From Pseudomonadota bacterium (GTDB lineage: Bacteria; Pseudomonadota; Alphaproteobacteria; Acetobacterales; Acetobacteraceae), in NCBI GenBank assembly GCA_021798575.1, contig JAJZGI010000018.1, forward strand, positions 1-38,275: a stretch of DNA of 38,275 bases, given 5' to 3'. Both the position numbers and the translations under genes were made by a program. The notes under the pieces were generated by a model. The model did not search any database. It had not been told where the DNA came from and saw only the letters and a program-made list of their open reading frames with translations. Shown here piece after piece: positions 1 through 24,538 of the stretch (its first letter is position 1; every line of letters starts with the position of its first letter).

Positions 1-67
1 CCAGCTTGGCACGGTCCTTGGCAGTGACTTTAACTTGAATACCATCGAGCATGCCCCAGAATCGCAT
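1..67 (-). CDS. IS630 family transposase, N-terminal fragment at window edge
   Basis: Reading leftward from the ATG at 65-67, the frame gives a short N-terminus with the motif GIQVKVTAKDRAKL. It resembles the start of IS630-type transposases, which open with a short beta strand followed by a D-R-x-x-L helix before the helix-turn-helix. Only about 22 codons are inside the window, so the DDE catalytic domain cannot be checked. A second in-frame Met at residue 6 could also be the start. The gene points away from the peptidase it interrupts, in the same direction of transcription. Confidence 0.6.
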   Translation of the reverse strand, partial: MRFWGMLDGIQVKVTAKDRAKL

Positions 68-121
68 CTCAGACGCAAAATGGGAATCCTAAATTGGACT
101 CAAATGTATGATTTTATCCAC
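1..121 (-). mobile_element. End of an IS630-type insertion sequence (rest lies left of the window)
   Basis: The reading frame of the M16 peptidase gene stops resembling its family at about position 123 and runs on for about ten unrelated codons before a stop, while a transposase-like frame starts at position 67 on the same strand. IS630/Tc1 elements insert at TA dinucleotides, and a TA sits exactly at 122-123, so I place the element end at 121. The terminal inverted repeat cannot be verified because the other end is outside the window. The boundary is an inference; the presence of an element is well supported by the truncated neighbour plus the transposase start. Confidence 0.55.
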
Positions 122-1930
122 TAGCAGCGTCTTTTTTTGCAGATTGACGAGCTGACTGAATAAGGGTTCGGCCAGCCTGGGCCGCAGCACGACATCGCCC
201 AGGAGATTGAGCGCAGAGACCAACCCGTCCGCCAGTCCGGTTATTTGAATCACGAATGAAGCCGGACCAGCAGAGATACTCAACGACAAACCGGCGGCCT
301 GAAGCGCAGCCGCCAGGCCGGCCGGATCATGCTCCCCGGCGCCGAAACGGGGTAGTTGCCCGAGTAGCGTGGTAGCGCCAGCCAATGAGTCGGGCTCGTC
401 CGCATAGCCGGAATCGACGCTGAAACGAACCACCAGCCCAGGCTCGCCGGGGCGGGACACATGAACGATCTTCAGACCACTATCCAGCGTGGTATTCTGG
501 ACAGGAATAACCGACAAGGCAGCGACCGCGCTTTTAATCGCGGGCACGGGCCGCGACGTGGCTGGCAATGCGGTGAATGTTTCTTTGACCGGCACCACAT
601 CGATGACGCAGGGCGGCGCGGTAAGCCAGGGCCGGGCTGCGTCGATAACATCCTGTGCGCTTGCCTCCGCCATACGTGTCGCGGCCAGCAGATAGTCACC
701 TGGATTTCCCGCATCGACCTCGCCCGATGACAACAGCCAGGCTTTGGTCTCGATATTTTCCAGGGCGCGCAGCATGCCCGACATGGAATTGCGACGAAAA
801 CGGTCGAATTCGGCCTCGGGCGCGGCGACCGCCAAAAACCGGGAGATCTCATCCTGGATCCTGCACTCAACATCGCGTGGCGTGGCGCCTGGCGCGAGCC
901 CTGTGTCAATCCGCAACTGACCGGAGATCATCCCCTGGTGCAGCATGGCCGAAACCTGACGCGCCGCCGCCTCGCCACCCTGCGGGCTGATCTCGACCAG
1001 GGCACGGTATAGAGGTGAGACGGCACCGCCGCCGAGCAGGCCGGCCGCGGCTGCGACAAGGTCGCACGCTCTGTCGGCCTGGTCAGGCGCCGACCACGCC
1101 ATGCTATGATGCGGCAGCATGGCACCGCGATCCTGCAGGGTAGCGCGCCTGCCGGATGGCGCCGGCACCCATCGTCCGGCTTTGAAATGCGGTCGGCAAG
1201 GCGCAATACCTCCGAAATAATCGGCGACTTTGCCGCGCATCTCCGCCATATCCACATCGCCGGCGATCACCAGCACCGCATTCGACGGCCCATAGAAATC
1301 CGCCGCCCAAAGCTGCGCCTCCTCAACGGTCGCGGAACGCAGGTCCGCGACACTACCGATGACCGAATGCCGGTAAGGATGCTCCGCCGGGTAGAGCAGT
1401 TCGTTCATACGATCGGTGAGCAGCCCGAAAGGCCGGCCCTCGCGTTCAAGCTTTTCCTGCAGCACGATCTCGCGCTGCTGATCGAATAATTCCGGGTCGA
1501 GCGCCTGCCTGAACCAGCCCATTCGGTCGGCTTCCGCAAACATCGTAAAATCCAGCATGCCGGACGGCACGAGCTCATGGTAGCGGGTGATGTCCGGCGA
1601 TGTCTGCGCATTTGCACGCACCGCCCCGGCTTCCAGGAGCCGGGCGATATAAGGGCCGGACAAAGTCGGCGTACCGCTGAACATAAGATGCTCGAACAGA
1701 TGCGCAAACCCGCTACGCCCTGGCGGATCGTCCTTGGCGCCCACCAGATAGGTGAGTGAAACCGCGACCAGCGGCGCCCGCCGATCCTCGTGCACAATCA
1801 CCCGCAAACCGTTATCAAGCTGGAAGCGGTCCCAGGACAGCGCAAGCTGATCCAACAAGCCGCGTGTTTTCCCGGCTGGCGGGCTGGCAGCCTGCTGCCC
1901 GCCCGCAAGCGTCCGTGCTACCATCCGCAC
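89..1930 (-). CDS. M16 family zinc metallopeptidase (pitrilysin/insulinase type), C-terminally truncated by an IS
   Basis: The N-terminal half is a catalytic M16 domain. The inverted zinc motif HLFEH lies at residues 77-81, with a downstream Glu in the LQEK segment at about 159, at the spacing expected for the third ligand. Residues from about 200 to 440 match the M16C partner domain, and from about 485 a second M16 half begins. Two-half M16 enzymes are usually around 900 residues; this one is 613, and its last ten or so residues are read from insertion-sequence DNA. The catalytic half is intact, but the clamp formed by the two halves is probably broken, so activity is doubtful. No signal peptide is visible, so a cytoplasmic protein is inferred. 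The start overlaps the AAA+ gene by 13 bp, which indicates translational coupling. Met3 at 1924 is an alternative start. Confidence 0.85.
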   Translation of the reverse strand: MRMVARTLAGGQQAASPPAGKTRGLLDQLALSWDRFQLDNGLRVIVHEDRRAPLVAVSLTYLVGAKDDPPGRSGFAHLFEHLMFSGTPTLSGPYIARLLEAGAVRANAQTSPDITRYHELVPSGMLDFTMFAEADRMGWFRQALDPELFDQQREIVLQEKLEREGRPFGLLTDRMNELLYPAEHPYRHSVIGSVADLRSATVEEAQLWAADFYGPSNAVLVIAGDVDMAEMRGKVADYFGGIAPCRPHFKAGRWVPAPSGRRATLQDRGAMLPHHSMAWSAPDQADRACDLVAAAAGLLGGGAVSPLYRALVEISPQGGEAAARQVSAMLHQGMISGQLRIDTGLAPGATPRDVECRIQDEISRFLAVAAPEAEFDRFRRNSMSGMLRALENIETKAWLLSSGEVDAGNPGDYLLAATRMAEASAQDVIDAARPWLTAPPCVIDVVPVKETFTALPATSRPVPAIKSAVAALSVIPVQNTTLDSGLKIVHVSRPGEPGLVVRFSVDSGYADEPDSLAGATTLLGQLPRFGAGEHDPAGLAAALQAAGLSLSISAGPASFVIQITGLADGLVSALNLLGDVVLRPRLAEPLFSQLVNLQKKTLLVDKIIHLSPI

Positions 1931-3510
1931 TGCCCGGACATGGCGTTCATTGGGTAGCGTCCGCCCTTCAGACGCAGCCGTTCATCCCCCATCCCGTCGG
2001 CCATTCTGTTGCGTACCGCGACGATCTCCGCCACCGCGCGTTCCAGATATGCCGCCGCCAGGGCGGGCGGGCGGGCGGCCACCAGGTCGCTGGCGTAGAG
2101 CGCCTTGGCATCCCCGATGAGGCGCCGCAAATCCGCAGGCGTAAAACCTTCCGTGATGCTGGCCACGGCAGCAGGATCAACGGCCTCCCTGCCGGGAAGC
2201 TCCTCGCCCATCCAGCGTTGAATGATCCGTGCCCGCGTCGGTTCATCGGGAAGCGAGGTCTCCAGCCAGAGCTCAATCCGTCCGGAGCGCAGCAACGCCT
2301 CGGGGATCGGCCGCAGGCTCATCGCCGTCATCATCACGCAGACATTGCTGGAGGTGCCGCTCTCCAGACCATCGAGCAGACTCAGCAGATAGCGCGATAG
2401 CCCGGCGATATGGTCGATCTTGAACAGCACATCCGCGTCGTCGATGAACAAAACCGATGGCGCATGGTCTTTGGCCTCCTGCACGACACTCTGGAATTTA
2501 CCAAAAAACGCCGCCGGCGGCTCACTGACGATCGAGCCGTCGATGAGAAAAAACTTTCCACTCATTCGGTGCGCCAGAGCCCTGCCGATACTTGTTTTGC
2601 CGGTACCGGGCGGCCCGAACAGCAATACGCCACGTTTGGGCCGCAACCCCAGTCGATGCGCCAGCTCGCGGTTTTCCAGCGGCAAAATGATATTAGCCTC
2701 CAGAGACTCGATGATATGCTCATGGCCAGGCAGTTGGGCAAAACTGATATTCTCTACCTCGCTCACCCGCGTGTTCGAGGTCACGACATGGGCCTCCAGC
2801 ACCTGGATGACGCTGTCACAATCGGGCGCCGCCTGCTGGTCCACCAGGGCCGCGGCGAGGCTGAGTTGATAGCCATTGAGGTAGGAGCTGTAGCGATAGA
2901 GCATGCCAAAATTTATTCCGTCGGCCTTTTCCGCGCCCAGAACCGTCTCGAAAAGCGCTGCGTAATCCGCCTGGGTGAAGCTCGACAGGGTGACAAGCGC
3001 GGCCTGATCGCCAAATTGCTGCGCGGCGCTCTCCCACGATTCCGGCGGACGGCCGCAGAGCACCAAGCTTTTGCCCGCTGCCAAGGTAAGCATGACGATG
3101 CGGCGCAGCACGGTGCGGTAGTAGCCCGGGCGGATTGAATTATTGTTGCCCGAACGCGACCAGTATTGCAGGTCATCGACCACCACCAGATCAGACTCCT
3201 GGATCGCCTGGATGATCCGTGCGCCGATCGCATCCTCGAACTGGTCGGCCGGCATATGGCTCGCCGCTTCGGCCATGTCGAGGGCCGTGATGATGGTACC
3301 GCCATGCCGGGCGGCAAGGGCGCGCAGAATCCGTGTCCGCCCGCTGCCGGTCGCGCCGGCCAGTGCGACGATCGGGGCGACGCGCAGAATTTCCTCCAAC
3401 TTGGCAAAGGCAATGGCCTGGGTCGGGGTCAAGGTCGGTATCGCATGATCTGACTGTGTCAACGTATTCATTGCAACCCCGGCAGGTGCCTTCGTTGTGC
3501 TCAAATTCAT
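1918..3510 (-). CDS. Two-module AAA+ family ATPase coupled to an M16 peptidase
   Basis: This 530-residue protein has two P-loop modules. Module 1 has a Walker A-like GATGSGRT (about 52-59) and a Walker B DLVVVDD (about 107-113). Module 2 is a standard AAA domain of the CDC48/proteasomal-ATPase class: GPPGTGKT (289-296), FIDDAD (about 335-340), a sensor-like segment and an arginine-finger region LLRSGRIE (about 397-404), followed by a helical lid. No membrane segment or signal peptide is seen. It overlaps the M16 peptidase gene by 13 bp, so the two were probably made together. The family role is ATP-driven remodelling or unfolding, but the substrate is unknown. I do not recognise a named orthologue. 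The start at 3510 has a poor ribosome-binding site; Met14 (3471) is possible. The 187 bp upstream (3511-3697) hold no gene I can support. Confidence 0.8.
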   Translation of the reverse strand: MNLSTTKAPAGVAMNTLTQSDHAIPTLTPTQAIAFAKLEEILRVAPIVALAGATGSGRTRILRALAARHGGTIITALDMAEAASHMPADQFEDAIGARIIQAIQESDLVVVDDLQYWSRSGNNNSIRPGYYRTVLRRIVMLTLAAGKSLVLCGRPPESWESAAQQFGDQAALVTLSSFTQADYAALFETVLGAEKADGINFGMLYRYSSYLNGYQLSLAAALVDQQAAPDCDSVIQVLEAHVVTSNTRVSEVENISFAQLPGHEHIIESLEANIILPLENRELAHRLGLRPKRGVLLFGPPGTGKTSIGRALAHRMSGKFFLIDGSIVSEPPAAFFGKFQSVVQEAKDHAPSVLFIDDADVLFKIDHIAGLSRYLLSLLDGLESGTSSNVCVMMTAMSLRPIPEALLRSGRIELWLETSLPDEPTRARIIQRWMGEELPGREAVDPAAVASITEGFTPADLRRLIGDAKALYASDLVAARPPALAAAYLERAVAEIVAVRNRMADGMGDERLRLKGGRYPMNAMSGQCGW

Positions 3511-3697
3511 TGTTCTGGCTTTCAGTTATTCATTCAATTATCTACGTCATTTCTGAAGTAGTCACTTCGTCGGCCCGGCGCATCCAACGAAAGTTGGTAA
3601 ATGCGCCGTTCCGGACAGGTCTATCGAAGCTGATCCTCAGAGTGCGATGACATGAAGATAACCCGCGGGCGGATCATCGTCATGTCTGAATCCGGCT

Positions 3698-6319
3698 CTA
3701 GAGCGACGCATGCAGCGTAAACAATACGCTGAGCGGCACACCATAATAGCTTCCCCCACCAAGATCACCAATGGTTTGATAATATTTGCGGTCGAAAATA
3801 TTCGTGACATTGAGCTGCGCGCTCACACGCGGGTTGATCTGGTATTTTGCGAAACCGTCGAAAATCGCGTAACCGCCTTGGTTAAGGTGCTCATCGGCGC
3901 AGGAGGTAAAGTTGGCATTGCAGACATAGCCGCTGGCGTTCGTGGTGCTTTGCGCATGGATGCCCACACCTGCCTGCAACCGGCGTAGCCAGGGTGCCCC
4001 GGCAAACTGATAGGTCGCAAACAACTTGGCCAGATGCTTCGGCGCAAGCGTCGTCAGGGGCACTCCCGGCCCGCTCCCCGACGCACCCGGGTCGAACCGA
4101 TTTTCATTATAGGTATAGCTCGCCGCGATTTGTAGTTGTGGCGTGATCGCGCCGTCGATTTCAACATCGACACCTTCACTGGTCTGGGTTTCACCCTCAT
4201 TCAGGTAACATCCATTCTGCGCGTTGCAAACCGGGTTTGAAAAACCGGCAAAGTTCAACACGGCAAGATTGACTTGCTTGGAATGATAGACAGAAATCGA
4301 GGAGTTCAGCGTGCCGTTGAAGTCCGATCGCTTGAGGCCTAATTCATAACTGGTGCCGGTTTCCGGGCCGATTTGTCGGCCACTCAGCGTGCGGTCCACG
4401 GATTGAGAATTATAAATGCCGGTATAGCTGAAATAGGCGGTCATACGCGGCGTCAGGTCCAGCGTCGCGCCGACATAAGGCGGCACGAATGTATGATCCG
4501 ATGTTCCGCTACGCTGGAATGGCGGGGTTGCAAAGCTCAGGATCTGCTCGAATCGGGTCTGGTAAACATTATAATGAAAACCCAACAGGATATGCAGCGG
4601 CGCCCATGGGCTGAGACGCAGCGTACCATAGAGACCATATTGCGCGGAATTGCTCTTGAGAACCTCGCTGCCGTTGGAGGAGTTAAGTGTATAACCTCCC
4701 GGCTGGGGAACCTGCGAGGGAGAGTAGGTAAAAATATCAATCGCCCCGTAATTCGGCGGCTCATTGAACGGATTGTTATAATAACCATTTTCCGCATTTG
4801 CCGAGGGGTAGGCAGTGTTCAAATACGCGTAATTCCCGCCAAAATCGACAGATTGCTCATGTCCAAATATGTCAAACTTACCGTTAATGGAACTGTCCGC
4901 AGAATATTGCGTCGATTGTGCCGCAAAACGAACGCCTGACAGATTATCGCCTGAACCGTTGGCCCGGTTAATCCCGCTGAAACCCAGCGCCTGCACTTCC
5001 ACACCGGACGAAGTCTGCTGCAAGCCGGAGAGATTAACCAGCCAGTTCCAGTGGCTGCCCAGCGACTGATGCAACTCGGCAAAATATTCGAGCGAGTGAA
5101 CGCCTTCATGCGTATAATCCGAGCACAGGCAGGTATCGCGCGGCAGGTTGATATTCGAGCCGTCGCTATAGCGCGGCAATACCCCCAGGAAGGGCAGCGT
5201 ATTCTCGTCGCTGAAATCAGAGCCGATATTGATCTGCGTGCCCAGGAACGGATCGAGCTCCAGGTTTTCGTAGATGGAATTCTGGTGTGCATAAGCGTAT
5301 TTATAGAAATAATCATGGTCTTCATGCGTAAAAATAGTGCGCAGGCGGATTTTTTTGTTGCCAAATAGCGGCGTCGAACCGTCCAGAACCAGGCGATGCT
5401 CATTATAGGAGCCGATGCTGGCACTGATATTAAGCTGCACGCCCTGCACCGGGCGCTTGCGCTGTAGGCTGATAACCCCGCCCGGATCACCCGAGCCGGA
5501 ATACAGGCCATCCGCGCCGCGGATAATCTGCACACTGTCGAATTCAGAAGAGTCAAAATCCGGCGTCAGATTCGGGGAGATGCCGGCGGTATTCGTACTG
5601 ACATAGCTGATGGGCGCCCCGCCATCGATCTGGAACGTATCGATCTGATACCCCCGTGAAAAATATTCAGGCTGCAACGGATTGGTCGGGTTCTGCACAA
5701 CCGTAATGCCCGGCGCCTGGTTGAGCACAGCCGTGATGCTGTGTAATTGCTGGTCCTCGATTTGCTGGCGTGTGACGACACTCACGCTTTGCGGCGTCTC
5801 ACGCATGCTCAACGGGGTTTTGGAGCCGATTGTCAGCGCATTGCTGGTGTAGCTCCCGGTACCCTCGGTGGCATCGGGGTCGCTGCTGCCATTGGCCCCC
5901 ACATTTGGCCCATAGGCAGGTGTTGCATTCTCCGTGCCGCTCGCCGCCTGAACTCTTACCGTACCGATGACTCCGGCCGCGGCGGGTGATGCAGCGCCAA
6001 CGACGACCTGATCAGGATCGGTGAAATGATAGCTCAACCCGCTTCCCGTCAACATCGCAGAGAGCGCCGTAGCGGGCGTCAAATTGCCCTGTACGGACGG
6101 CACGCTCACATCCGCATCGCTGGCGCCAACCACCTTAATCGACGTGACGCGCGAGAATGCGGCAAGCGCGTCAGCCAAATCCTCCGACGGAAGATTAAAT
6201 TGATAGGTCGCGGATGGCGCCGCGTGGAGTACGGACGGCATGGCTGCGCTGGCTGTAAAGACGACACAGGAGGCAAACAACGCGGTTCGCCGGCGGCGGG
6301 AATGAATATGGATCGACAT
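3698..6319 (-). CDS. TonB-dependent siderophore-type receptor with N-terminal STN signalling domain
   Basis: An arginine-rich N-terminus and hydrophobic core ending in LHAA (cleavage near residue 34) form a signal peptide. Residues about 39-110 are a secretin/TonB short N-terminal (STN) domain, as in FecA, FpvA and FoxA. The plug follows at about 165-285, with the family hallmark SMRETPQSVSVVT and the GADGLYSGSGDPGGVI segment. The rest is a 22-strand type barrel. These receptors import ferric siderophores or similar ligands across the outer membrane, and the STN domain passes a signal to an anti-sigma factor. No FecI/FecR pair is in the window, so the partner must be elsewhere or lost. The C-terminus ends in HASL rather than the usual final aromatic residue. 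A good AGGGGG ribosome-binding site precedes the start. The ligand cannot be predicted. Base composition is lower in GC than the flanking xseA/purD. Confidence 0.92.
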   Translation of the reverse strand: MSIHIHSRRRRTALFASCVVFTASAAMPSVLHAAPSATYQFNLPSEDLADALAAFSRVTSIKVVGASDADVSVPSVQGNLTPATALSAMLTGSGLSYHFTDPDQVVVGAASPAAAGVIGTVRVQAASGTENATPAYGPNVGANGSSDPDATEGTGSYTSNALTIGSKTPLSMRETPQSVSVVTRQQIEDQQLHSITAVLNQAPGITVVQNPTNPLQPEYFSRGYQIDTFQIDGGAPISYVSTNTAGISPNLTPDFDSSEFDSVQIIRGADGLYSGSGDPGGVISLQRKRPVQGVQLNISASIGSYNEHRLVLDGSTPLFGNKKIRLRTIFTHEDHDYFYKYAYAHQNSIYENLELDPFLGTQINIGSDFSDENTLPFLGVLPRYSDGSNINLPRDTCLCSDYTHEGVHSLEYFAELHQSLGSHWNWLVNLSGLQQTSSGVEVQALGFSGINRANGSGDNLSGVRFAAQSTQYSADSSINGKFDIFGHEQSVDFGGNYAYLNTAYPSANAENGYYNNPFNEPPNYGAIDIFTYSPSQVPQPGGYTLNSSNGSEVLKSNSAQYGLYGTLRLSPWAPLHILLGFHYNVYQTRFEQILSFATPPFQRSGTSDHTFVPPYVGATLDLTPRMTAYFSYTGIYNSQSVDRTLSGRQIGPETGTSYELGLKRSDFNGTLNSSISVYHSKQVNLAVLNFAGFSNPVCNAQNGCYLNEGETQTSEGVDVEIDGAITPQLQIAASYTYNENRFDPGASGSGPGVPLTTLAPKHLAKLFATYQFAGAPWLRRLQAGVGIHAQSTTNASGYVCNANFTSCADEHLNQGGYAIFDGFAKYQINPRVSAQLNVTNIFDRKYYQTIGDLGGGSYYGVPLSVLFTLHASL

Positions 6320-6554
6320 GGAAAACCCCCTGATAACGCGTTATGGGTACAGTTTGTGGGAACAAGCGGAATGAGCCGGCAATGGCGGAGTTCCTGTTGG
6401 TCGGCATATGTCCGCGCGCGGTAAAAACTTAGAACTGAAAAGATGCATCAACTTAGCTTTCCTAAATTGTGCAACCAGCAGCCCACCCTGAATTTTGTTA
6501 CCAATTTATTACCGCAAATCGCGGTTTCTTTAGTACCCCCCGAAAGTCGGGAAA
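6320..6554 (-). promoter_or_regulatory. AT-rich upstream region of the TonB receptor gene, with a weak dyad
   Basis: This is the first part of a 365-bp stretch without a gene. It is clearly richer in A and T than the coding DNA around it and must contain the receptor promoter. A small dyad, TTAG-CTTTC-CTAA, lies at 6453-6465. In alphaproteobacteria iron-responsive operators have TTAG/CTAA half-sites, so this might be an iron-control site, but the spacing is not the classic one and I hold it weakly. No convincing sigma-70 boxes were picked out by eye. Confidence 0.25.
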
Positions 6555-6689
6555 TAGAGTCTGATCGTTTGAGGTTGGCGCGTCTTGCGCGGCAACCGAG
6601 AGCGTTGATCAGCCTCTAAACAAGAGAGTCTGATCGTTTGAGGTTGGCGCTTCTTGCGCGGCAACCGAGAGCGTTGATCAGCTTCTAAA
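6555..6689. repeat. Two tandem copies of a 65-bp hairpin-forming element
   Basis: Copy 1 (6556-6620) and copy 2 (6625-6689) have a period of 69 bp and differ at only two positions by my reading. Each copy is itself a dyad. In copy 1 the outer arms TAGAG-t-CTGATC (6555-6566) pair with GATCAG-c-CTCTA (6607-6618), and the inner arms GGTTG/CAACC and GCGC/GCGC form the tip. Copy 2 overlaps the end of xseA, and the xseA stop codon (6685-6687) is formed by the arm of the element. It could act as a bidirectional terminator or mRNA-stabilising structure, or be a REP-like or MITE-like mobile repeat. There is no long T-tract on either side. Confidence 0.8.
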
Positions 6690-8084: not shown

Positions 8085-9371
8085 ATGAAAATACTCATCA
8101 TCGGCGGGGGCGGGCGGGAGCACGCGCTGGCCAGCGCCATTGCGCGCAGCCCGCTGCTGGAAAAACTCTATGTCGCCCCCGGCAACCCCGGCACCGCTTC
8201 CATCGCCACCAACATCCCCCTGCGCGCCACGGATATCGCTTGCATCGTCAGCTTCGCCATCGAACATCAGGTCGATCTCGTCATCCCCGGCCCGGAGGCA
8301 CCACTCGTCGCGGGCATCGCGGATGCCTGTGCGCGCGCCGGCATCGCCTGTTGCGGCCCCAGCGCCGCCGCCGCCCAGCTCGAGGGCAGCAAGCGCTTCA
8401 CCAAGGAGCTGGCGGACGCGGCAAACATCCCCACCGCGGCGTGGGACGTGTTCGACGATGCCGACGCCGCGCATGACTATATCGAGGAAATGGGCGCGCC
8501 CATCGTCATCAAGGCGGATGGCCTGGCCGCTGGCAAGGGCGTGGTGGTCGCGCTCACGCTGGAGGAGGCGCACGCCGCCATCACCGCCATCATGGAGGAT
8601 AAAATCCACGGCGCGGCGGGCGCGCAGGTGGTCATCGAGGAGTGCCTGGAGGGCGAGGAGATCTCCCTCTTCGCGCTGTGCGACGGGCTGGACGCGCTCT
8701 ATCTGGGCGTTGCCGCCGACCATAAGCGCGTGGGCGATGGCGATACCGGGCCCAATACCGGCGGCATGGGGGCGATCTCGCCGCCACCCTGGGCCACGCC
8801 AGCCATCATCGCCGACACCATGGCGCGCATCATCCGCCCGGCATTGGCCGAGATGGTGGCGCGCGGCACCCCGTTCCGTGGCTTCCTGTTCGCCGGGCTG
8901 ATGCTGGAGCCAGACGGCCCCAAGCTCATCGAATTCAACGTCCGCTTCGGGGACCCTGAGTGCGAGACGATTCTGCCCTTGCTGAACAGCGATCTGCTCC
9001 CCGCCCTGCGCGCCGCCACCAACGGCACGCTGGCAACCGCCTCGCTCACCTGGCAAAATGCCGCCTCCGCCACCGTGGTGCTGTGCTCCAGGGGCTACCC
9101 CGGCGCCTACGCCACCGGCGGCGAGATTTATGGGCTGGAGGAAGCCGCGCGCCTGCCCGGCGTGAGCATCTTCCATGCGGGCACCATGGCGGACCAGGGC
9201 GGAATCCTCGCCAATGGCGGCCGCGTGCTCGCCATCAACGCCACCGGCGTCGGCCTGCCCCAGGCCGTGGCGCGCGCCTACGCCGCCGTCGATACAATAG
9301 AATGGAGCGACGGTTTCTGCCGCCGGGACATCGGCAAACGCGCGATATTTCTCAGTGAAAACCTATCCTAG
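8085..9371 (+). CDS. purD: Phosphoribosylamine-glycine ligase (GAR synthetase)
   Basis: This enzyme joins glycine to 5-phosphoribosylamine with ATP in purine synthesis. It has a typical ATP-grasp layout: the N-terminal [16 protein letters not shown] motif, the [10 protein letters not shown] segment, the ATP-binding [14 protein letters not shown], the [19 protein letters not shown] loop, and [11 protein letters not shown] near the metal site. The frame stays open upstream to 8049, but the start at 8085 gives the canonical N-terminus at 428 residues and has a GGGGGCGGG purine run before it. It is convergent with the ABC transporter gene, and the ends overlap by 9 bp. Confidence 0.97.
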
Positions 9372-11105
9372 CGCCTGCGCCCGCACCAGCCGGGCGAACG
9401 CACCCTCCGCCGCCATCAGCTCCGCGTGCGTGCCCGCCTCCACGGCGCATCCATCTTCCATCACCACAATCAGGTCCGCATCCCGCACCGTGCTCAGCCG
9501 GTGCGCCACCACAATGGTCGTGCGCCCCTGGCGCAGCCTGGTCAGCGCCGCCTGCACCGCCGCCTCGCTCTGCGTATCCAGCGCGCTGGTCGCCTCATCC
9601 AGCAGCAGAATCCTCGGGTCCCGCAAAATCGCCCGCGCCAGTGCCACCCGCTGCCGCTGCCCGCCCGAGAGCCGCTGCCCATTCACCCCCACGCGTGTGT
9701 TGAACCCCTCTGGCATCTGCGCCGCAAAGCCGCACGCCGCCGCCTGCGCCGCCGCCAACACCTCGGCCTCACTCGCCTCCGGCCGCCCCAGCAATATATT
9801 CGCCGCGATACTGTCATCGAACAACAACGCATCCTGCCCGACATACGCCACCGCCCCACGCAGGGAGGCGAGCGTCACCCCGCTCACCACCACGCCGTCG
9901 ATGCGTATCTCCCCGCCCGTCGGCGTATACAGCCGGGGGATCAGCGCCAACGCGGTGGATTTCCCGGCCCCCGACGTGCCCACCAGCGCCAGCATCCTGC
10001 CTGGTGCTGCGGTAAAGCTCAGGTCCCGCAGCCCCGGCCTGCCATCCGGATAGGCAAACGCCACATGGCGGAACACCACCTCGCCCGGCCCATGGGTGAG
10101 CGCCACCGCGCCCGGCGCATCGGCGATCGCGGCTGGCTCGTCGATCACGTTGAACACCCGCGCCAACCCGGCCAACCCCTCCTGCACCGCGGAATTCATC
10201 GTCCCCAGCGCGCGCAGCGGGCGGGAGGCCAGCAGCAGCGCCGACACAAACCCCATGAAGCTCCCCACCCCGCCGCCGCCGGTCGCGTTGCGCCATCCCT
10301 CAAACCCGATCACCATGGCCACCGCCAACCCGCCCAGCACCTCCAGCATCGGGTCCAGCCGGGCGCGCACCCGCACCATCCGTATCAGCGACTGATACAG
10401 CGCGTCGAACGTCCGCTCCGCCCGCCGCCGCTCATGCGCCTCCAGCCCGTAGGCGCGCACCGTCCTGGCCTGGGCAAAGCTCTCATTCAGCATCGCCGCC
10501 GCCTCGCCCATGCGCTCCTGCATCCCGCCCGAGGCCCGGCGCATCCGTTTGCCGATCTTCTGCACGGGGATCCCCGCCAGCGGGTACAGCACCGCCGCGA
10601 TCACGCTCAGCTTCCAGTCGATCACGATCATCGTGATCACCAGCCCAAACACCGTCGCCACATCCGCCACCGCGTTCACCGCCCGTGTCATCGCCTCGCG
10701 GATCACGGTCGCGTCCGTCGTGAATCGCGCCGCCAGCGTCGCCGGCGCCTCCCGCTCCACCCGGGCCAGCGCCGCATCGCTCAAATGCCCAAACATCCCC
10801 ACCTGCAACCGGCGGATCACCAGCAGCACCATGTCCTGCGTATACACGGACTGGAAATACATGGAGAATCCCTTCACCGCCGTTACGCACAGCACCAAAA
10901 TGGGCACCTGATACAAAATCCTCGGGTCCTTATGCGCGAACATCGTAAACGCCCAGTCGATCAACGCCGGATACAGCGCCGTGGTGCCGGACATCACAAG
11001 CGTCGCCACCACGATCAGCCCAATCCGCACCCGGTAGTGCCGCACATAGTCCCGCCACAGCCGGGCGATGAGGACTCGGGTCGAAAATTCATGCTCCATG
11101 CGCAA
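9363..11105 (-). CDS. MsbA-type ABC exporter (fused membrane and ATPase domains)
   Basis: This is a 580-residue half-transporter. Residues about 1-320 carry six predicted membrane segments of the type I exporter fold, with the intracellular-loop segment preceding the linker. The ATPase domain has Walker A GTSGAGKST, a Q-loop VGQDALLFDD, the signature LSGGQRQR, Walker B ILLLDEATS, and an H-loop AHRLST. The family flips lipid A, other lipids or drugs across the inner membrane as a homodimer. MsbA is the best guess because the next gene on the other strand is a phosphatase and a glycan gene block follows, but a general multidrug role cannot be excluded. Only 49 bp separate it from the divergent phosphatase gene, so the two promoters must share that space. 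Confidence 0.88.
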   Translation of the reverse strand: MRMEHEFSTRVLIARLWRDYVRHYRVRIGLIVVATLVMSGTTALYPALIDWAFTMFAHKDPRILYQVPILVLCVTAVKGFSMYFQSVYTQDMVLLVIRRLQVGMFGHLSDAALARVEREAPATLAARFTTDATVIREAMTRAVNAVADVATVFGLVITMIVIDWKLSVIAAVLYPLAGIPVQKIGKRMRRASGGMQERMGEAAAMLNESFAQARTVRAYGLEAHERRRAERTFDALYQSLIRMVRVRARLDPMLEVLGGLAVAMVIGFEGWRNATGGGGVGSFMGFVSALLLASRPLRALGTMNSAVQEGLAGLARVFNVIDEPAAIADAPGAVALTHGPGEVVFRHVAFAYPDGRPGLRDLSFTAAPGRMLALVGTSGAGKSTALALIPRLYTPTGGEIRIDGVVVSGVTLASLRGAVAYVGQDALLFDDSIAANILLGRPEASEAEVLAAAQAAACGFAAQMPEGFNTRVGVNGQRLSGGQRQRVALARAILRDPRILLLDEATSALDTQSEAAVQAALTRLRQGRTTIVVAHRLSTVRDADLIVVMEDGCAVEAGTHAELMAAEGAFARLVRAQALG

Positions 11106-11154
11106 GGGCGTTAGCCTATTTTCGTGGCCCGAGAAACTGCGCTAAGCTATCGTT

Positions 11155-11829
11155 ATGGATACGATCTTCAAGGGCAGCCTCACCACCCCATCCGGCCGGC
11201 GCAACGCCTGGATGGACGCGCTCTTCATCGACCACGCGGTCCTGCGCATCCTGTGGACCAACTTCGCCGTGGTCCGCCCCGGCGTCCTGTACCGCTCCAA
11301 CCACCCCACACCGGGCAACCTGCGCGCCTTCACCCGCAAGCACGGCATCAAAACCCTCATCAACCTGCGTGGCCAGGCCAAAAACGGGTCGGACGCCCTC
11401 TCGCGCGAGAGTGCTTCCCAACTCGGGCTGGATTTCCACGACATGGCAATGGAATCCCGCGGCGCCCCGCACCGCGAACGTATCCTGCGCCTCGCCGACA
11501 TTTTTGCCGGCATGCGCGCCCCCGCACTCATCCATTGCAAATCCGGGGCGGACCGTGCTGGTCTGGCCGCGGGCATCTTTCTACTCCTGCAAGGGGAGCG
11601 CGCTTCGGTGGCCCTGCAACAACTCTCCTGGCGCTACGGCCATATCAAACAGGCCAAAACCGGGATCCTGGACGCCTTCTTCCTCACCTACCAGCGGGAC
11701 GGCGAGGCGAGGGGCAAAAAATTCCTGGACTGGGTACAGGAGGACTATTCCGAGAATTCGCTGCGCGCCGCGTACAAGGTAAACGCCCTGGCCGGGTTCA
11801 TCAACGATCACGTACTAGGTCGAGAGTGA
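11155..11829 (+). CDS. CX5R protein phosphatase (dual-specificity/tyrosine phosphatase family)
   Basis: The phosphatase loop IHCKSGADRAG places the catalytic Cys at 128 and Arg at 134 (CX5R). The upstream YRSNHPTPGNLRAF and IKTLINLRGQ segments match the bacterial dual-specificity phosphatase fold. The general-acid Asp would lie in the LDFHDMAM stretch. At 224 residues it is slightly longer than the minimal domain, with an alpha-helical C-terminus. No signal peptide is seen, so a cytoplasmic protein is likely. It sits directly before the methyltransferase/glycosyltransferase block (40 bp gap) and divergent to the ABC exporter, which suggests a job in envelope-polymer control. The substrate is unknown, and a phosphoinositide-like or lipid phosphatase is possible. 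Confidence 0.8.
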   Translation: MDTIFKGSLTTPSGRRNAWMDALFIDHAVLRILWTNFAVVRPGVLYRSNHPTPGNLRAFTRKHGIKTLINLRGQAKNGSDALSRESASQLGLDFHDMAMESRGAPHRERILRLADIFAGMRAPALIHCKSGADRAGLAAGIFLLLQGERASVALQQLSWRYGHIKQAKTGILDAFFLTYQRDGEARGKKFLDWVQEDYSENSLRAAYKVNALAGFINDHVLGRE

Positions 11830-11869
11830 GAAATATTTTAATAGCATCAAGCGAGCAAAGACCCTGCAA

Positions 11870-12958
11870 ATGAGCCAACCTCAAGCGGCTACCCCGGTTA
11901 AGCGTGACCCAGTGGATGCCCTTTGGCTCGCCGATGAACTCGAAACATTGGGAGCCTGCCCAATTTGTGGTTCCAGCGAGCGTACATTGGCCTACGAGAA
12001 CAAGCGTGACCGGGTTTTTTTCTGCGCCCCAGGGGCCTGGACAGCCTGGACATGCGCGGCCTGCCATGTCGCCTACCTCGATCCGCGCCCCACACCGCAG
12101 TCGATTCACGCTGCTTATGCGAGCTATTATACGCATGGTGCGCCTTCATTATCCTTCACGGGGAGGTTGCTTGCAAAATTGCAGATCGGTATTCGCCACA
12201 GCCACCTCAAGCGACACCTTCACTACCGCTTGCCCGGCGCACTTCCCTTGGGCTGGCTTGTTTATAAAATCATGGCGTCGCAGGCGATCGTTACCAACCA
12301 TACCATCAGGCATTTACCGCCAACCCGCCCAGGCCAGAACCGGCTCCTTGATATCGGCTGTGGCGACGGTGATTTTCTCATCATTGCTCGCGATATCGGC
12401 TTCAATGTCGAAGGTCTCGAAGTCGATCCAATATCCCGCGCGGTAGCGCACAAGGCTGGGCTGACCGTTCATCCCGGCCCATTCCCCGGCTCGATTTTGC
12501 AGCCCAGTAGCTATGATCATATTACCATGAGCCATGTCTTGGAACATTTTCACGATCCCGTCGCGGCGTTGCATGATGCCTTAAAGCTACTCAAACCGGG
12601 CGGTCGAATCTGGGTGAAAGTGCCCAACCTCGCGGCCCTTTCACATCGTTATTTTAAGCAAAATGCCTTCCTGCTGGACCCACCCCGGCACTTGGTTATG
12701 TTCGATGGTGCTTCCCTGGCGGCTTTGCTTAGCAAAGTCGGCTTTACCGGGGTTACGACCTTGCCGCCTAGCCTGCTTGACCAGAAAAACTTTTACGGCG
12801 GTGGCTGGATGATATCGCAGGGCTTTGACCCTATGTCGGCGTCGCCGCTGAATGTCCCCTCTTCGGTCAAAGCAGACGTTCTAAAAACCTATTCGCAAGC
12901 AACAGAATTTTTTAATGATGCGGAGGTGGTCACAATCATCGCGACCAAACCGGTTTGA
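11870..12958 (+). CDS. SAM-dependent methyltransferase with N-terminal zinc ribbon
   Basis: The N-terminus has two CxxC pairs, C30-x2-C33 and C62-x2-C65, a zinc-ribbon arrangement common in sugar methyltransferases. The class I Rossmann domain follows: motif I LDIGCGDGDF at about 160-169, the acidic end of strand 2 in VEGLEVDP, and the MSHVLEHFHDP and LLKPGGRIWVKVPN segments of motifs III and IV. Relatives modify nucleotide-linked sugars or polysaccharide chain ends in the cytoplasm. At 362 residues it is full length. It overlaps or abuts the GT2 gene downstream, which supports a shared glycan pathway. Composition is more AT-rich than purD or glyA, suggesting a transferred block. Confidence 0.85.
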   Translation: MSQPQAATPVKRDPVDALWLADELETLGACPICGSSERTLAYENKRDRVFFCAPGAWTAWTCAACHVAYLDPRPTPQSIHAAYASYYTHGAPSLSFTGRLLAKLQIGIRHSHLKRHLHYRLPGALPLGWLVYKIMASQAIVTNHTIRHLPPTRPGQNRLLDIGCGDGDFLIIARDIGFNVEGLEVDPISRAVAHKAGLTVHPGPFPGSILQPSSYDHITMSHVLEHFHDPVAALHDALKLLKPGGRIWVKVPNLAALSHRYFKQNAFLLDPPRHLVMFDGASLAALLSKVGFTGVTTLPPSLLDQKNFYGGGWMISQGFDPMSASPLNVPSSVKADVLKTYSQATEFFNDAEVVTIIATKPV

Positions 12959-12960
12959 CA

Positions 12961-14013
12961 ATGGTGACAAATCGCGGAAACACCGACATGGTTTTGCCAA
13001 GTCGTCTGACCATCGGCATACCCACACTCAATCGTGCGGATCTCGTAGCCAAACTCGTGCAGGTTTGCCTATCGCAAACATTGGTGCCGTATGAAATCAT
13101 CGTGTCGGATGATGCCTCAGATGATACAACATTAGCAAATCTCGACGCGCTGGCTCATCCACGGCTGAAAATCCTCAAGCAACACCCCAGGCTGGGCATG
13201 ATCGCGAACTGGAATGCCTGTCTTGATTCCTGCACCAGTGAATATTTTGTGCTGATTTCAGATGACGATATGATCTGCCAGGATTTTGCCGAACAAGTGG
13301 AGGCGACCTTGGCCAAAGCGCCAGGCGCAGACCTGCTTATCGTCCGGGGCCGGATTGTGGACAGGCTGACTGGCGAAACAAATACCAATCATCCACCCAT
13401 CATGGCCGCCGGTAGCGCAGATTTTGTCCGTGACATCCTGCCTGCCTGGCTGGATTGCTCATTTGTACTGCCGTTCGCAAGTATGGTTTTCAAGGTGGCC
13501 GCGCTGCGCGCTGCCGGCGGTTTCGTGACAAATTTCCCTTACGCGTCGGATGCCGCGACATGGCTGCCTATCGCCATGCGGGGTCATTGTGCCTTCTTCC
13601 CCGAGGCCAAGGTTGACTGCATCGTGCATGAGGGCATGGCGACGCGAACCTTTAATGTCGAGACACTGATCGAAGATATCGTAAAATTGATGGCGCTGGT
13701 CAATACCGAAGTCAAAGCGAAATCCGCGATACCATCCGAACTTGCAGGAAAAATTCAAAAACTCTCACGAATCTATCTCCGTCGGACTTTTGGTCACGTG
13801 ATGATCACCTCAGCACGACGCGGAGTTGGCAAGGGCAAGCTGCTCCGGGCCTGGTTACACTATGCGGCAAAACTTCCGCTTTATGGTGTGGGGGCACTCA
13901 GTCTTGGCGCCGTTCTTGTACCGCTTGGGTCTATCCAGATTATCGGCTGGCCCTACCGAAAATGGGTCAACCTGCGACGCTATTCTAACAGAGTACGGCG
14001 AGATGAACGATAA
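12961..14013 (+). CDS. Family 2 glycosyltransferase
   Basis: This is a GT-A fold transferase. The N-terminus RLTIGIPTLNRADLV is the nucleotide-binding strand, SDDASDDTT is the first acidic motif, and LISDDDMI is the DxD-like motif that binds metal and the nucleotide-sugar. A hydrophobic C-terminal stretch (PLYGVGALSLGAVLVPLG) may lie at the membrane. It transfers a sugar from a nucleotide donor, but acceptor and sugar are unknown. The start is uncertain: a TTG at 12955 overlaps the preceding stop, an ATG lies at 12961, and an ATG at 12988 has a GGAAA purine run at about the right distance. The gene overlaps the following GT4 gene by 11 bp. Confidence 0.87.
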   Translation: MVTNRGNTDMVLPSRLTIGIPTLNRADLVAKLVQVCLSQTLVPYEIIVSDDASDDTTLANLDALAHPRLKILKQHPRLGMIANWNACLDSCTSEYFVLISDDDMICQDFAEQVEATLAKAPGADLLIVRGRIVDRLTGETNTNHPPIMAAGSADFVRDILPAWLDCSFVLPFASMVFKVAALRAAGGFVTNFPYASDAATWLPIAMRGHCAFFPEAKVDCIVHEGMATRTFNVETLIEDIVKLMALVNTEVKAKSAIPSELAGKIQKLSRIYLRRTFGHVMITSARRGVGKGKLLRAWLHYAAKLPLYGVGALSLGAVLVPLGSIQIIGWPYRKWVNLRRYSNRVRRDER

Positions 14014-15184
14014 AGCCAGAATAAATGCAGGCTTGGTATTGGACAATCTTGATCTCAGTGGCGCAGAAAAAATTGCGGTCAACCTCCTGCGCCATGCCGG
14101 GCGCATGCAATCGATCAATCTGCAAGGGTTTATCTGCATGGATGACCGCCTAGGCTGCACAAAGGTCGCAGAGAATCTCATGCATCTGACGCCGGATATG
14201 CCAAATTTTGGTAGCTTGTTATTCCGGCTGAAAAAAGCTCTGATCGCAACGGTGAGACTCCGTCGCTCCGCGAAATCTTTTGACGTCCTGATCGCGGTGA
14301 CACCTCCGGCAGTTATTTTTGCTTTTCTAGCCACCATTTTCATGCCCTGCCAAATCATTCCTTGGGTGCATTATGACCTGGATGGCATCTCGCGCAGCCG
14401 ACTGACGAAAGGTCGAGGGCTGCGCGATAGTCTGCAACAAATCCTCTATATGAATTTTGTTCCCGCCTTTCGTATCATTATCTTCGTCAGCGAGAACACA
14501 CGGGCTTCCTTCAGCAGGCACAAGGGTTCAACGCGGCCCGCTTGGTATGTATTGCCGAATACTTTAGATGAATCGTCTTTCTTGCCTGCGACCGAGTCCG
14601 AGACCTCCATCAAAGCAACGATATTGGCAAACGCTGGGGTGCCGCTGTTGCTTTTTCTTGGTCGAATTTTTCCACAAAAGCGCTGGCAGGATGCCATAGC
14701 TGTGGCCGAATACCTGGCTGCGAAAGGCTGGAAATTTAATATGGCCTTTGTCGGTGATGGGATCGAGCGCGAAGCTTTTATAGAGCGGACTAGGGCCTCG
14801 CCCGCTGCATCTCATCTGCATTATCTCGGGTCAGATACAAATCCATTGCCCACCGTAAAATGCGCCGCAGCGCTGATTATCACTTCACTTTATGAGGCTT
14901 GGCCAACCGTTATTCTGGAAGCTAATTTGGCCGACATTCCAGTGTTATCTTACGACTGTCCTTCTGGTCCCAGAGAAATGCTCGGCAAAAATGAACGAGG
15001 CATCGTGACCAAAGAATCACCAGAAGCTCTTGCCGACGGGATTATTTACTATTTTTCTTTGGATAAAACTTTAAGAACGCTCATGTTGGTTCGTGCGCAT
15101 GACTTTGCCACGAGCTTCTTACCAAAAACGACATTGTCACAATGGGAGGCAACACTTACTAAAATTGTCCAAGACGGTCGATGA
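14003..15184 (+). CDS. Family 4 glycosyltransferase (GT-B fold)
   Basis: The C-terminal Rossmann half carries the GT4 pattern: LLFLGRIFPQKRWQDAI (donor-site Arg/Lys), AFVGDGIEREAF, a YLGSDTNP segment, and the E-x7-E type motif in SLYEAWPTVILEANLA. The N-terminal half, with VLDNLDLSGAEKIAVNLL, is the usual acceptor-binding domain with the GGAE-like glycine loop. The frame is open far upstream, inside the GT2 gene, but the ATG at 14003 gives the expected N-terminus (393 residues) and an 11-bp overlap with the GT2 gene. It probably adds a sugar to the same polysaccharide as its neighbour. AT-rich composition is shared with the previous two genes. Confidence 0.87.
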   Translation: MNDKARINAGLVLDNLDLSGAEKIAVNLLRHAGRMQSINLQGFICMDDRLGCTKVAENLMHLTPDMPNFGSLLFRLKKALIATVRLRRSAKSFDVLIAVTPPAVIFAFLATIFMPCQIIPWVHYDLDGISRSRLTKGRGLRDSLQQILYMNFVPAFRIIIFVSENTRASFSRHKGSTRPAWYVLPNTLDESSFLPATESETSIKATILANAGVPLLLFLGRIFPQKRWQDAIAVAEYLAAKGWKFNMAFVGDGIEREAFIERTRASPAASHLHYLGSDTNPLPTVKCAAALIITSLYEAWPTVILEANLADIPVLSYDCPSGPREMLGKNERGIVTKESPEALADGIIYYFSLDKTLRTLMLVRAHDFATSFLPKTTLSQWEATLTKIVQDGR

Positions 15185-15242
15185 ATTATGTTTGGCGATC
15201 TAAAAACGGATGATGTCCCGCTGCGAGGTGAAGGAGCGTATC

Positions 15243-15356
15243 ATGAATACGCCACCGTTCGATCCACCCTATTACCCATCCCCCCGACTGATTACAACGC
15301 CACCCCCAACCCCCAAATTCCCCCTTGACTCCCCCACAAATTGTCACTATAACTAA
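15243..15356 (+). CDS. Possible 37-residue proline-rich small protein or leader peptide
   Basis: An AAGGAG ribosome-binding site lies seven bases before the ATG at 15243. The short frame encodes about ten prolines, including a PPP run, and ends at 15356, just before the hypothetical gene at 15361. A second small frame in another phase (ATG at 15188, stop near 15328) has no ribosome-binding site. The small frame spans the strong promoter at 15325-15353, so it could be a leader peptide, a fortuitous frame, or an old gene remnant. I recognise no family. Coding status is not established. Confidence 0.3.
   Translation: MNTPPFDPPYYPSPRLITTPPPTPKFPLDSPTNCHYN
15325..15353 (+). promoter_or_regulatory. 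Strong sigma-70-like promoter giving an apparently leaderless mRNA
   Basis: A -35 box TTGACT at 15325-15330 and a -10 box TATAAC at 15348-15353 are separated by exactly 17 bases, each five of six against consensus. The predicted start point, six to eight bases after the -10 box, falls on or next to the ATG at 15361, leaving no room for a ribosome-binding site. The transcript would therefore be leaderless. Confidence 0.65.
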
Positions 15357-15360
15357 CTTC

Positions 15361-15957
15361 ATGTCCGGCTCCACCATCTCTCAGCGCCTCACCCGCATCG
15401 TGGCGACGCTCAGTCAGAGCCTCACCATCTATGCTCCGCGCGTTAAAATGCCGGTTTCATTGTGCCAGTCGATCTCCCGCCGCTTAACCCGCCTGATGGA
15501 CCGCCTGCGTGTCCTCATCGCGCGCGGCTCACTCCCACCCCGCCCGGCGCGCGCCACACCCCGCAACCCACCCACCAACCCAAAACCCAGCACGGATGAA
15601 CTCTACCCGCCCACCAATTTCGGCTGGCTCTTCCATATGTTCCCGGACACGGATATCCGGGCCATGCGCGGCCATCTGCTCAACCTGCTGAATGAACCCG
15701 AGACCCAATCCCTCATCACGAGCCACCCCATGCTCGCCCGCAGCCTCCGGCCCTTGTGTCACATGCTGTGCATCAAACCGCCCGCCTGCCTCAAACTCCC
15801 CTCAAGGCCGCGCATAAAACGCGCGCCATCACCCACACCACCACCCACAAAACCACTACGAAAAATCTGGCGCCCAACCCCACCCAGAATCATGACGCCC
15901 TTCGAGGCCCAACTCGCCGCCCGGCAATTCTTCAACCCGCGCGATTTTTACCAATAA
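15361..15957 (+). CDS. Conserved-type hypothetical protein, proline- and arginine-rich
   Basis: This is a 198-residue basic protein. An amphipathic N-terminal third rich in Ser, Arg and Leu (about 1-60) is followed by a Pro-rich linker. A compact segment begins STDELYPPTNFGWLFHMFPDTD and runs to about residue 140, a second Pro/Lys/Arg-rich linker follows, and the tail has EAQLAARQFFNPRDFYQ. Small proteins with this central motif appear familiar from Acetobacteraceae as unannotated genes, but I know no function. No signal peptide or membrane segment is evident. The start at 15361 lies immediately after a strong promoter, which argues for leaderless translation. Start sites at 15448 or 15496 lack ribosome-binding sites too. 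Confidence 0.7.
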   Translation: MSGSTISQRLTRIVATLSQSLTIYAPRVKMPVSLCQSISRRLTRLMDRLRVLIARGSLPPRPARATPRNPPTNPKPSTDELYPPTNFGWLFHMFPDTDIRAMRGHLLNLLNEPETQSLITSHPMLARSLRPLCHMLCIKPPACLKLPSRPRIKRAPSPTPPPTKPLRKIWRPTPPRIMTPFEAQLAARQFFNPRDFYQ

Positions 15958-15981
15958 ACACCACCCCGCCTTTGCACGCCC

Positions 15982-16007
15982 ATTTTATTACGATATCGTA
16001 ATAAAAT
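15982..16007. promoter_or_regulatory. Perfect 26-bp AT-rich palindrome between convergent genes
   Basis: Thirteen bases, ATTTTATTACGAT, are followed at once by their exact reverse complement. The site lies between the end of the hypothetical gene (15957) and the end of the MBL-fold gene (16011). It is very AT-rich in GC-rich surroundings. As RNA it would fold into a stem ending in a U- or A-rich arm in both directions, so a compact bidirectional terminator is the simplest reading. A protein-binding site is the alternative. Confidence 0.6.
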
Positions 16008-16010
16008 CAG

Positions 16011-16982: not shown

Positions 16983-17048
16983 CCCCCTATATGGGCGGCA
17001 AACGGCGGGTTGACACACCCAAGAGCGGCGGGTAATTTGATCTATATT

Positions 17049-17069
17049 TGCGACTAATTCTTAATTGCA
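17049..17069. promoter_or_regulatory. Imperfect dyad upstream of the metal-transporter-like gene
   Basis: The 21-bp sequence TGCGACTAATTCTTAATTGCA has matching outer ends TGC/GCA and TAA/TTA inner elements. It lies 21 bp before the ATG of the transporter and in front of the divergent hydrolase gene. Alphaproteobacterial Fur/Mur operators have TGCAA...TTGCA type arms, so a metal-responsive repressor site is possible. The match is partial and found by eye. Confidence 0.3.
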
Positions 17070-17090
17070 TCTAGCGAGAGCGAGTCATTC

Positions 17091-21148: not shown

Positions 21149-21154
21149 GCCGCC

Positions 21155-23402: not shown

Positions 23403-24538
<1,136 letters not shown>

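Follow-up and report, generated by a model that had tools for sequence, protein, structure and literature searches.

A putative remnant of a TonB-driven peptide uptake-and-dismantling operon in an Acetobacteraceae genome

What would bring a TonB-dependent receptor, a two-module AAA+ ATPase and an M16 peptidase together in one block of genes? The question is raised by a 38,275-nucleotide stretch of DNA from a member of the Acetobacteraceae (contig JAJZGI010000018.1 of assembly GCA_021798575.1), which is called the window here; it makes up the entire contig G000:C86 of a genome of 2.37 Mb, in 95 contigs, that is 96.4% complete. An earlier note on this DNA had described the three genes and proposed unfolding and cutting of a peptide as their joint task. 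Our analysis shows that the grouping exists, that it belongs to a type of import-and-dismantle cluster found repeatedly, and that it is probably inactive in this genome. Judged from sequence, the window carries, with a probability of about 55%, the remnant of an operon for TonB-driven uptake and dismantling of peptides.

The evidence that carries this conclusion comes from the relatives of the AAA+ protein. A search for its homologues returned 35 loci, and among them six proteobacterial clusters of import genes, found in a Sphingomonadales metagenome-assembled genome (MAG; L034), a Rhodanobacter MAG (L035), Pseudomonas cuatrocienegasensis (L036), a Sphingomonas MAG (L037), Peristeroidobacter soli (L038) and Novosphingobium (L057), the window representing a seventh (Table 1). 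As all seven clusters of this AAA+ branch possess a TonB receptor, the grouping goes beyond chance, and the receptor directly adjoins the AAA+ gene in six of them (L035 is the exception), contrary to the earlier suggestion that it might be independent of the genes downstream. An ABC transporter of the YddA type (PF06472) is encoded in six clusters, the window contig ending too early, and M16 in six as well (L037 is the exception). ExbB, ExbD and TonB are present together in five, none being seen on the window contig or on the 14.6-kb contig of L035, and a regulator, either ECF sigma factor with FecR (L036, L037, L038, and L057) or LuxR, is present in six. The pairing of AAA+ with M16 is not obligate, with five clusters carrying M16 in the absence of AAA+ and with L037 carrying six AAA+ genes and no M16 in the stretch read. 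An overlap of the two genes is seen in two of the seven clusters (window and L034), and L036 has them side by side.

Table 1. Features of the three-gene block in the window and gene orders of related clusters.
Locus	Feature or gene order	Positions	Strand	Remarks
Window	M16 peptidase gene, N-terminal two thirds	89..1930	-	613 aa; frame stops inside insertion-sequence end; relatives 860-928 aa
Window	Tandem AAA+ ATPase	1918..3510	-	530 aa; divergent N-terminal and classic C-terminal AAA module
Window	TonB-dependent receptor	3698..6319	-	873 aa; STN, plug and barrel; FauA/FhuE/FpvA-like; signal-like N-terminus
Window	Multi-copy insertion-sequence end (1-120) and CTAG (121-124)	1..124	-	Interrupts M16 gene; is the contig end
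Window	Spacer upstream of receptor	6320..6684	.	Contains most of a 69-bp tandem repeat
L034	receptor-AAA-M16-ABC-ExbB-ExbD-TonB-LuxR
L035	receptor-ABC-LuxR-AAA-AAA-thioredoxin-M16
L036	M16-receptor-AAA-M16; opposite direction ABC-ABC-ExbB-ExbD-TonB-ECF-FecR
L037, first part	thioredoxin, aminotransferase, TldE (opposite strand), TldD, hydrolase, transglutaminase/rhamnosidase, lipoprotein-like			~45 kb in total
L037, second part	ABC, ECF, ExbB, ExbD, TonB, FecR, other genes, then receptor-AAAx6
L038	ExbB-ExbD-TonB-ECF-FecR-receptor-AAAx6-lipoprotein-like-ABC-GH2-M16-M3 peptidase
L057	M16-ABC-receptor-AAA-AAA-ExbB-ExbD-TonB-ECF-FecR
G810	receptor-M16-ABC-ExbB-ExbD-TonB-ECF-FecR			No AAA
L106 (Klebsiella plasmid)	receptor-ABC-ABC-M16-thioredoxin-M16-ExbBD-TonB-ECF-FecR	8179..26496		No AAA

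In L037 the AAA+ array is separated from the ABC transporter gene by about 18 kb, from TldD by about 25 kb, and from TldD/TldE and thioredoxin together by about 25-30 kb, and the two M16 genes of this genome are found elsewhere. That TldD/TldE may substitute for M16 here is only a suggestion, because of the 25 kb separating them from the AAA+ genes. A lipoprotein-like gene is common to L037 and L038, and thioredoxin genes are present in L035, in L037 and in one plasmid cluster, of Klebsiella. The AAA+ copies (at 1e-40) number one in L034 and L036, two in L035 and L057, and six in L037 and L038, each set forming one cluster, and the genome of the window encodes one full-length copy. The six tandem genes of L037 and the six of L038 group mostly by genome, even if with weak tree support, and orthology between the two sets was rejected, with a separate origin of each as a possibility only; among the L037 paralogues there are two closer pairs (68 and 61% identity). 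Four copies in the multi-copy genomes have the Walker A lysine of the first module replaced, by V, N, C, or H, with the second-module motifs retained in all. These losses are compatible with unequal subunits but do not demonstrate a mixed ring. Glycosidase genes were observed near two of the AAA+ import clusters (L037 14166-16700, L088 6701-9373, and L091 3136-4914), GH116 and GH2 by Pfam, the one in L088 being rhamnosidase-like by eye only, and these are perhaps a hint of a glycosylated substrate. A 1224-aa protein combining a transglutaminase-like/EDR1-type peptidase with an alpha-L-rhamnosidase is encoded near TldD/TldE in the Sphingomonas cluster (L097 12586-16260), and in the L034 cluster LuxR is immediately followed by a gene for an Asp/Glu racemase (L095 7648-8394).

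A core of receptor, ABC transporter and M16 also occurs without AAA+, in five clusters: G810, a Klebsiella pneumoniae plasmid, two Pantoea agglomerans plasmids and a Methylobacterium bullatum replicon. When the L038 transporter was compared at 1e-120 with 397 genomes from the family of Sphingomonas, G318 and G810 were recovered. G810 is absent from the AAA+ matches obtained at 1e-50 in a same-sized draw from its family, in which any genome not listed has no match. Of the plasmid records, 29 had an M16 match and five an ABC match, and the four with both were examined; AAA+ was sought in the plasmid records, as distinct from the chromosomes of the strains. The Klebsiella and both Pantoea plasmids encode receptor, M16, ABC, ExbB, ExbD, TonB, ECF, and FecR, the Klebsiella cluster additionally a thioredoxin-domain protein, and the Methylobacterium replicon encodes ABC, receptor, an M16 split into two chains, ExbD and ExbB, TonB being matched only weakly. 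As these five clusters carry the core kit on its own, the AAA+ protein is an add-on, perhaps for tougher substrates.

Beyond the import clusters, 26 loci are of a solitary type, with AAA+ genes in unrelated surroundings, mostly in Acidobacteriota, Verrucomicrobiota, Planctomycetota, Gemmatimonadota, and Armatimonadota. In the 14 that are flanked by 3 kb or more on either side, no receptor or M16 match was found at 1e-5, one ABC match and one thioredoxin match being present, and at a looser threshold L050 has a single weak receptor match (E 2e-4). The earlier note would have given up its proposal if most homologues lacked such neighbors; taken literally this is the case, but the solitary loci lie across a branch of the AAA+ tree, with 19 import-type rows on one side of it (support 100/99). 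The tree is unrooted, and as a midpoint root puts both L057 copies on the solitary side, the import type does not necessarily form a clade; L055 (a 4.8-kb contig in a record titled Nevskia) is placed among the solitary rows. The AAA+ protein is also rare, being found, with three candidates scored per genome so that some copies could be hidden, in its own genome and one other (G318, with the same contig coordinates as the L037 genome) among 398 genomes of the phylum, and in 1 of 397 genomes of the family of G318. It has no match in plasmid records at 1e-30, nor in viral contigs.

What could such a protein do? In the window, it possesses a classic AAA domain at residues 295-414 (Pfam, E 4e-24) and also an N-terminal P-loop module, thus a two-module AAA+ architecture with at least one module bearing all the catalytic motifs: Walker A is GATGSGRT in the first module and GPPGTGKT in the second, followed in the latter by FIDDAD and RSGR. 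The second module is closest to Cdc48/p97. A profile of the first, built from 34 of 41 full-length sequences, matched AAA domains of the Cdc48/p97, Rix7 and Msp1 types over most of their length (~1e-8 to 1e-10), while its top score was to midasin (5e-19), but over short stretches only. Singly, the 34 modules matched AAA_22 (13/34), AAA_16 (13/34), AAA (11/34), and NACHT (7/34), some matching NACHT/STAND models instead, and we regard the first module as probably a divergent AAA+ module. The second module is invariant in all 41 aligned full-length sequences at the Walker A lysine and threonine, the Walker B D-D, F335, R408, and R411 (the alignment and the tree omit L064, L066, L067, and L068, as fragments or AAA core only, L060, L061, and L065, as incomplete gene models, and the first L056 copy). 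The Walker A lysine of the first, in contrast, is K in 21 of the 41 and R in 15, including the window, with V, N, C, H, and T in one each, and because of this difference the second ring is likely the motor. Position 335, aligned by eye with the pore loop of FtsH-type proteins, is no more than suggestive of ATP-driven threading of a substrate, and the unfolding originally proposed as the job of this protein appears likely. An FtsH-like protease was rejected as an identity, since the AAA core is similar but no M41 domain is listed in the Pfam scan of the window protein.

The M16 protein of the window matches Peptidase_M16 (E 7e-17) and M16_C (E 4e-17) and possesses at residue 77 the zinc motif HLFEH (of the HxxEH form), which is found in seven of the seven AAA-linked M16 chains. 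The Pfam scan covered a single full-length chain, that of L034, and showed two M16_C stretches in it, in agreement with the two homologous halves of M16 peptidases; the window copy lacks about the last third. As reported earlier, the AAA+ and M16 proteins of the window have no signal-like N-terminus by hydropathy. Nor is an N-terminal signal peptide apparent by eye in 12 M16 chains, seven from the AAA+ clusters and five from AAA-less ones (two each from Klebsiella and Pantoea and one from G810), while the Escherichia coli PqqL has one. These judgments combine hydropathy with inspection by eye, a custom gene finder having supplied the start codons, and in the cluster chains the peptidase domain is preceded by no more than about 36 residues; their hydropathy peaks are 0.79-2.30, versus 2.74 for PqqL, the higher ones sitting in the first strand of the domain. 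With no visible signal peptide on M16, and with a YddA-type ABC transporter in all six clusters readable beyond M16, the cutting looks cytosolic, this being the simplest reading.

The copy in the window is probably a relic. Its M16 protein aligns with that of L034 to residue 602 of 613 and then continues for some 11 residues of foreign sequence, belonging to the end of an insertion sequence (IS) that is found at 12 sites of the genome at 99-100% identity, the window included, and at four more at 75%. At all eight junctions read, again including the window, CTAG directly precedes the element, and each is at a contig end. This truncation was overlooked in the earlier note, although the genes themselves are real, with coordinates, strands, the 187-bp gap between receptor and AAA+ genes (3511-3697) and the 13-bp AAA/M16 overlap (1918-1930) all as described, the overlap being counted from the GTG start of M16 and shrinking to 7 bp from an ATG at 1924. 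Pfam likewise agrees with the identities given, including the signaling domain of the receptor (STN). The missing C-terminal third of M16, with the L034 protein as query, returned nothing from the same genome at E 0.1, in a search run without a positive control, and the IS end has no match in plasmids. A transporter of the cluster type has no match at 1e-110 in the genome of the window, and there is none on the window contig. The best looser match, a YddA-like gene on G000:C40 (34%, E 2e-66), was rejected as the missing transporter, being 33% identical to E. coli YddA and 28-32% to seven cluster ABC proteins. As the IS interrupts M16 and no cluster-type transporter was found, the system is probably defunct or in decay in this genome, and loss of both the M16 end and the transporter is likely, the alternative being a missing contig.

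How do these clusters relate to known systems? Fus and YddAB-PqqL are reported to combine a receptor, an M16 peptidase and an ABC transporter, Fus also including a TonB-like protein (PMC7593965, PMC5095587). The clusters likewise pair a receptor, a TonB-like protein, a two-halved M16 and a fused ABC transporter, as do Fus (FusA receptor, FusB TonB, FusC M16, FusD ABC) and the E. coli YddA-YddB-PqqL. The transporter of L034 is 26.6% identical to YddA over 572 aa, transporters of this YddA/FusD type are those counted above, and the TonB with ExbB/ExbD in five clusters is a dedicated one. The parallel with Fus drawn in the earlier note is thus strengthened, the relatives completing the Fus kit. 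The receptor, however, is of the FauA/FhuE type and not detectably related to the FusA/YddB family: YddB has no blastp match at 1e-3 to seven cluster receptors, and the 30 PDB entries matched by the window receptor comprise receptors for siderophores, B12 and the like, none named FusA. The M16 proteins resemble PqqL at only 25-29% over 201-234 residues and do not have the appearance of periplasmic enzymes, and the clusters add their own ExbB/ExbD, AAA+ and, in some, thioredoxin. Given a different type of receptor and an apparently cytosolic M16, the clusters would be expected to work like Fus without being members of it.

Cdc48/p97 shares the two AAA+ modules per chain and the classic second module, with its Walker A, pore-loop phenylalanine and conserved arginines. 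Unlike it, the window protein has no Cdc48 N-domain by Pfam, its first module is degenerate in the Walker A lysine, the Walker B is DD throughout the 41 sequences, and neither of the two AAA+ proteins scanned reaches an NCBIfam cut-off. With the SbmA/BacA/BclA/YddA group the cluster transporters share PF06472 and a match to YddA, two being just below the SbmA_BacA cut-off, but in a comparison with the L034 transporter and YddA they are 40-51% identical to the former and 22-27% to the latter, and they occur in linkage with M16 and AAA+. The anti-phage pair IetA/IetS resembles the block in a distantly similar AAA module and in the placement of AAA next to a protease, but the protease here is M16 and the neighbors are import genes. 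An IetAS defense system was rejected, IetA scoring 43.8 against a cut-off of 510 and being weak in PADLOC, with no separate search for IetS made. In the open-licence full-text literature, searched with AAA in part of the queries, we found no description of a receptor, ABC and M16 cluster with AAA+.

The reading that we favor builds on what the clusters display directly, that is, gene content, linkage, active-site motifs and no obvious M16 signal peptide. A siderophore-type TonB receptor, with a dedicated ExbB-ExbD-TonB set as its power source and with ECF sigma/FecR or a LuxR regulator in control, would bring a peptide or mini-protein into the periplasm. The YddA-type transporter would move it on to the cytosol, the tandem AAA+ ATPase would unfold it there, with thioredoxin possibly reducing disulfides in some clusters, and a cytosolic M16 peptidase would cleave the unfolded chain. 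From gene content we infer the direction and nature of the transport, the class of substrate, the threading, and the cooperation of AAA+ and peptidase. TonB receptors are mainly regarded as importers to the periplasm, and a TonB/inner-membrane route to the cytosol is best known from Trojan-horse peptides. Uptake of microcin J25 is reported to proceed through a TonB receptor, TonB-ExbB-ExbD and SbmA (PMC3652737), and the BclA peptide transporters have been placed within the YddA clade (PMC13316013).

A number of observations weigh against this reading. The hydropathy peaks overlap somewhat, and the measure alone gives no clean separation of cluster M16 from PqqL. L037 has no M16 in its stretch, and its link to TldD/TldE and thioredoxin may be due to chance, at a distance of ~25-30 kb from the AAA+ array. 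The five AAA-less clusters indicate that AAA+ is dispensable for the core job. The best solved relatives of the cluster transporter are ABCD-family and similar transporters, some of which carry non-peptides. The receptor is siderophore-receptor-like in sequence, leaving room for iron uptake. Finally, the source that places BclA states YddA to be of unknown function (PMC13316013).

Iron or metal acquisition, in which a metal-bearing peptidic siderophore or a small metalloprotein would be imported and the peptidase, aided by AAA+, would free the metal, is the alternative suggested by the receptor, whose best matches are FauA, FhuE and the pyochelin and pyoverdine receptors; those of L034 and L038 score above the TIGR01783 siderophore-receptor cut-off, the window receptor remaining below it (205.7 versus 223.5). 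The ECF sigma/FecR sets of four clusters also agree with this, and there is a precedent in Fus, whose FusC is reported to cleave ferredoxin in the periplasm (PMC7593965). The location of the cutting is what makes us doubt this explanation, as an M16 with no visible signal peptide and an inner-membrane YddA-type transporter in all six readable clusters make cytosolic cutting seem likely; in addition, no iron reductase or siderophore hydrolase is present among the genes scanned, many neighbors lying outside the scan, and we hold it unlikely, though a serious candidate. Detoxification, by which antimicrobial peptides (lasso, defensin-like or plant cysteine-rich) entering by this route would be destroyed in the cytosol, has in its favor the similarity to the route of microcin J25 (PMC3652737), and the thioredoxin genes of three clusters would suit disulfide-rich peptides. 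Yet defense would need neither an importer of its own nor ExbBD-TonB, and the receptor-linked signaling genes would suit scavenging better, making this improbable.

The earlier note had also considered a substrate made by the cell, resembling ribosomally synthesized and post-translationally modified peptides (RiPPs). AAA+ and M16 would then process a precursor, the ABC transporter would export the product and the receptor would retake it. The M16 protein PqqF functions in PQQ synthesis, and receptors with ECF/FecR are found in lasso clusters; TldD/E is reported to process microcin B17 (PMC5810440). Against this, the ABC family is related to SbmA importers, and no precursor is common to the clusters among 463 small open reading frames (ORFs) of 15 regions, the matches being overlaps of the same DNA, fragments of genes left uncalled in the two Pantoea loci, and two weak ones located opposite the ends of receptor genes. 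This substrate thus found no backing, and we consider the idea very improbable. That the genes of the window are chance neighbors forming no functional unit might be argued from the solitary homologues in other phyla, none of the well-flanked ones being near a receptor or M16, but the receptor-AAA linkage is repeated in seven clusters, six with the transporter and six with M16, so this explanation is already largely refuted and barely credible.

A bolder version of the uptake-and-dismantling reading would see, in Gram-negative bacteria, a self-contained line from import to destruction for folded or disulfide-bonded mini-proteins, with a cytosolic AAA+ ring feeding M16 or TldD/E, peptidases lacking an unfoldase themselves, and with the six tandem paralogues of Sphingomonas and of Peristeroidobacter forming one ring of six different subunits. 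The base of the eukaryotic proteasome is such a ring of six different AAA+ subunits, and six is divisible by every AAA+ copy number observed (1, 2, and 6). TldD/TldE are described as accepting only unfolded peptides (PMC5810440). We consider this version rather improbable as a whole. If uptake and dismantling are indeed the function, protein-like cargo would be carried on to the cytosol and dismantled by an ATP-driven unfoldase, for nutritional or detoxifying use, YddA-type transporters would acquire a role that can be tested, M16 peptidases would have an unfoldase to work with, and the six-paralogue arrays would make mixed AAA+ rings testable in a tractable bacterial setting. Confirmation would add a new twist to the known protein-import systems.

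As to the origin of the block, third-position GC is 0.64-0.75 in the receptor, AAA+ and M16 genes, versus 0.81-0.87 in nine other window genes measured, and no full-length AAA+ homologue was found at 1e-20 in 99 other genomes compared (37 of the same genus), all matches listed there beginning at AAA+ residue 238 at the least, that is, covering only the classic module. The deviating composition and the absence of a full-length homologue from these genomes point to lateral acquisition. No terminator-like site was found on the minus strand between receptor and AAA+ genes, and there is one promoter-like match (3565-3537), the counts not exceeding shuffle expectation; window positions 1800-6800 contain four promoter-like matches versus 2.8 expected (sd 1.6) and one terminator-like match versus 5.1 expected. 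An Rfam scan of positions 1-7000 gave nothing at gathering score. Between the end of xseA and the start of the receptor gene there is a 69-bp tandem repeat (6552-6693; 2.1 copies, 93% match), a 16-mer of which has one further occurrence, on another contig of the same genome (L002). Elsewhere in the window, a 98-base tRNA-Ala called by ARAGORN at 9800-9897, on the same strand as the long ABC-type ORF that encloses it, is probably a false positive, and a long ORF at 32801-37012 (1403 aa) has a strong coding signal.

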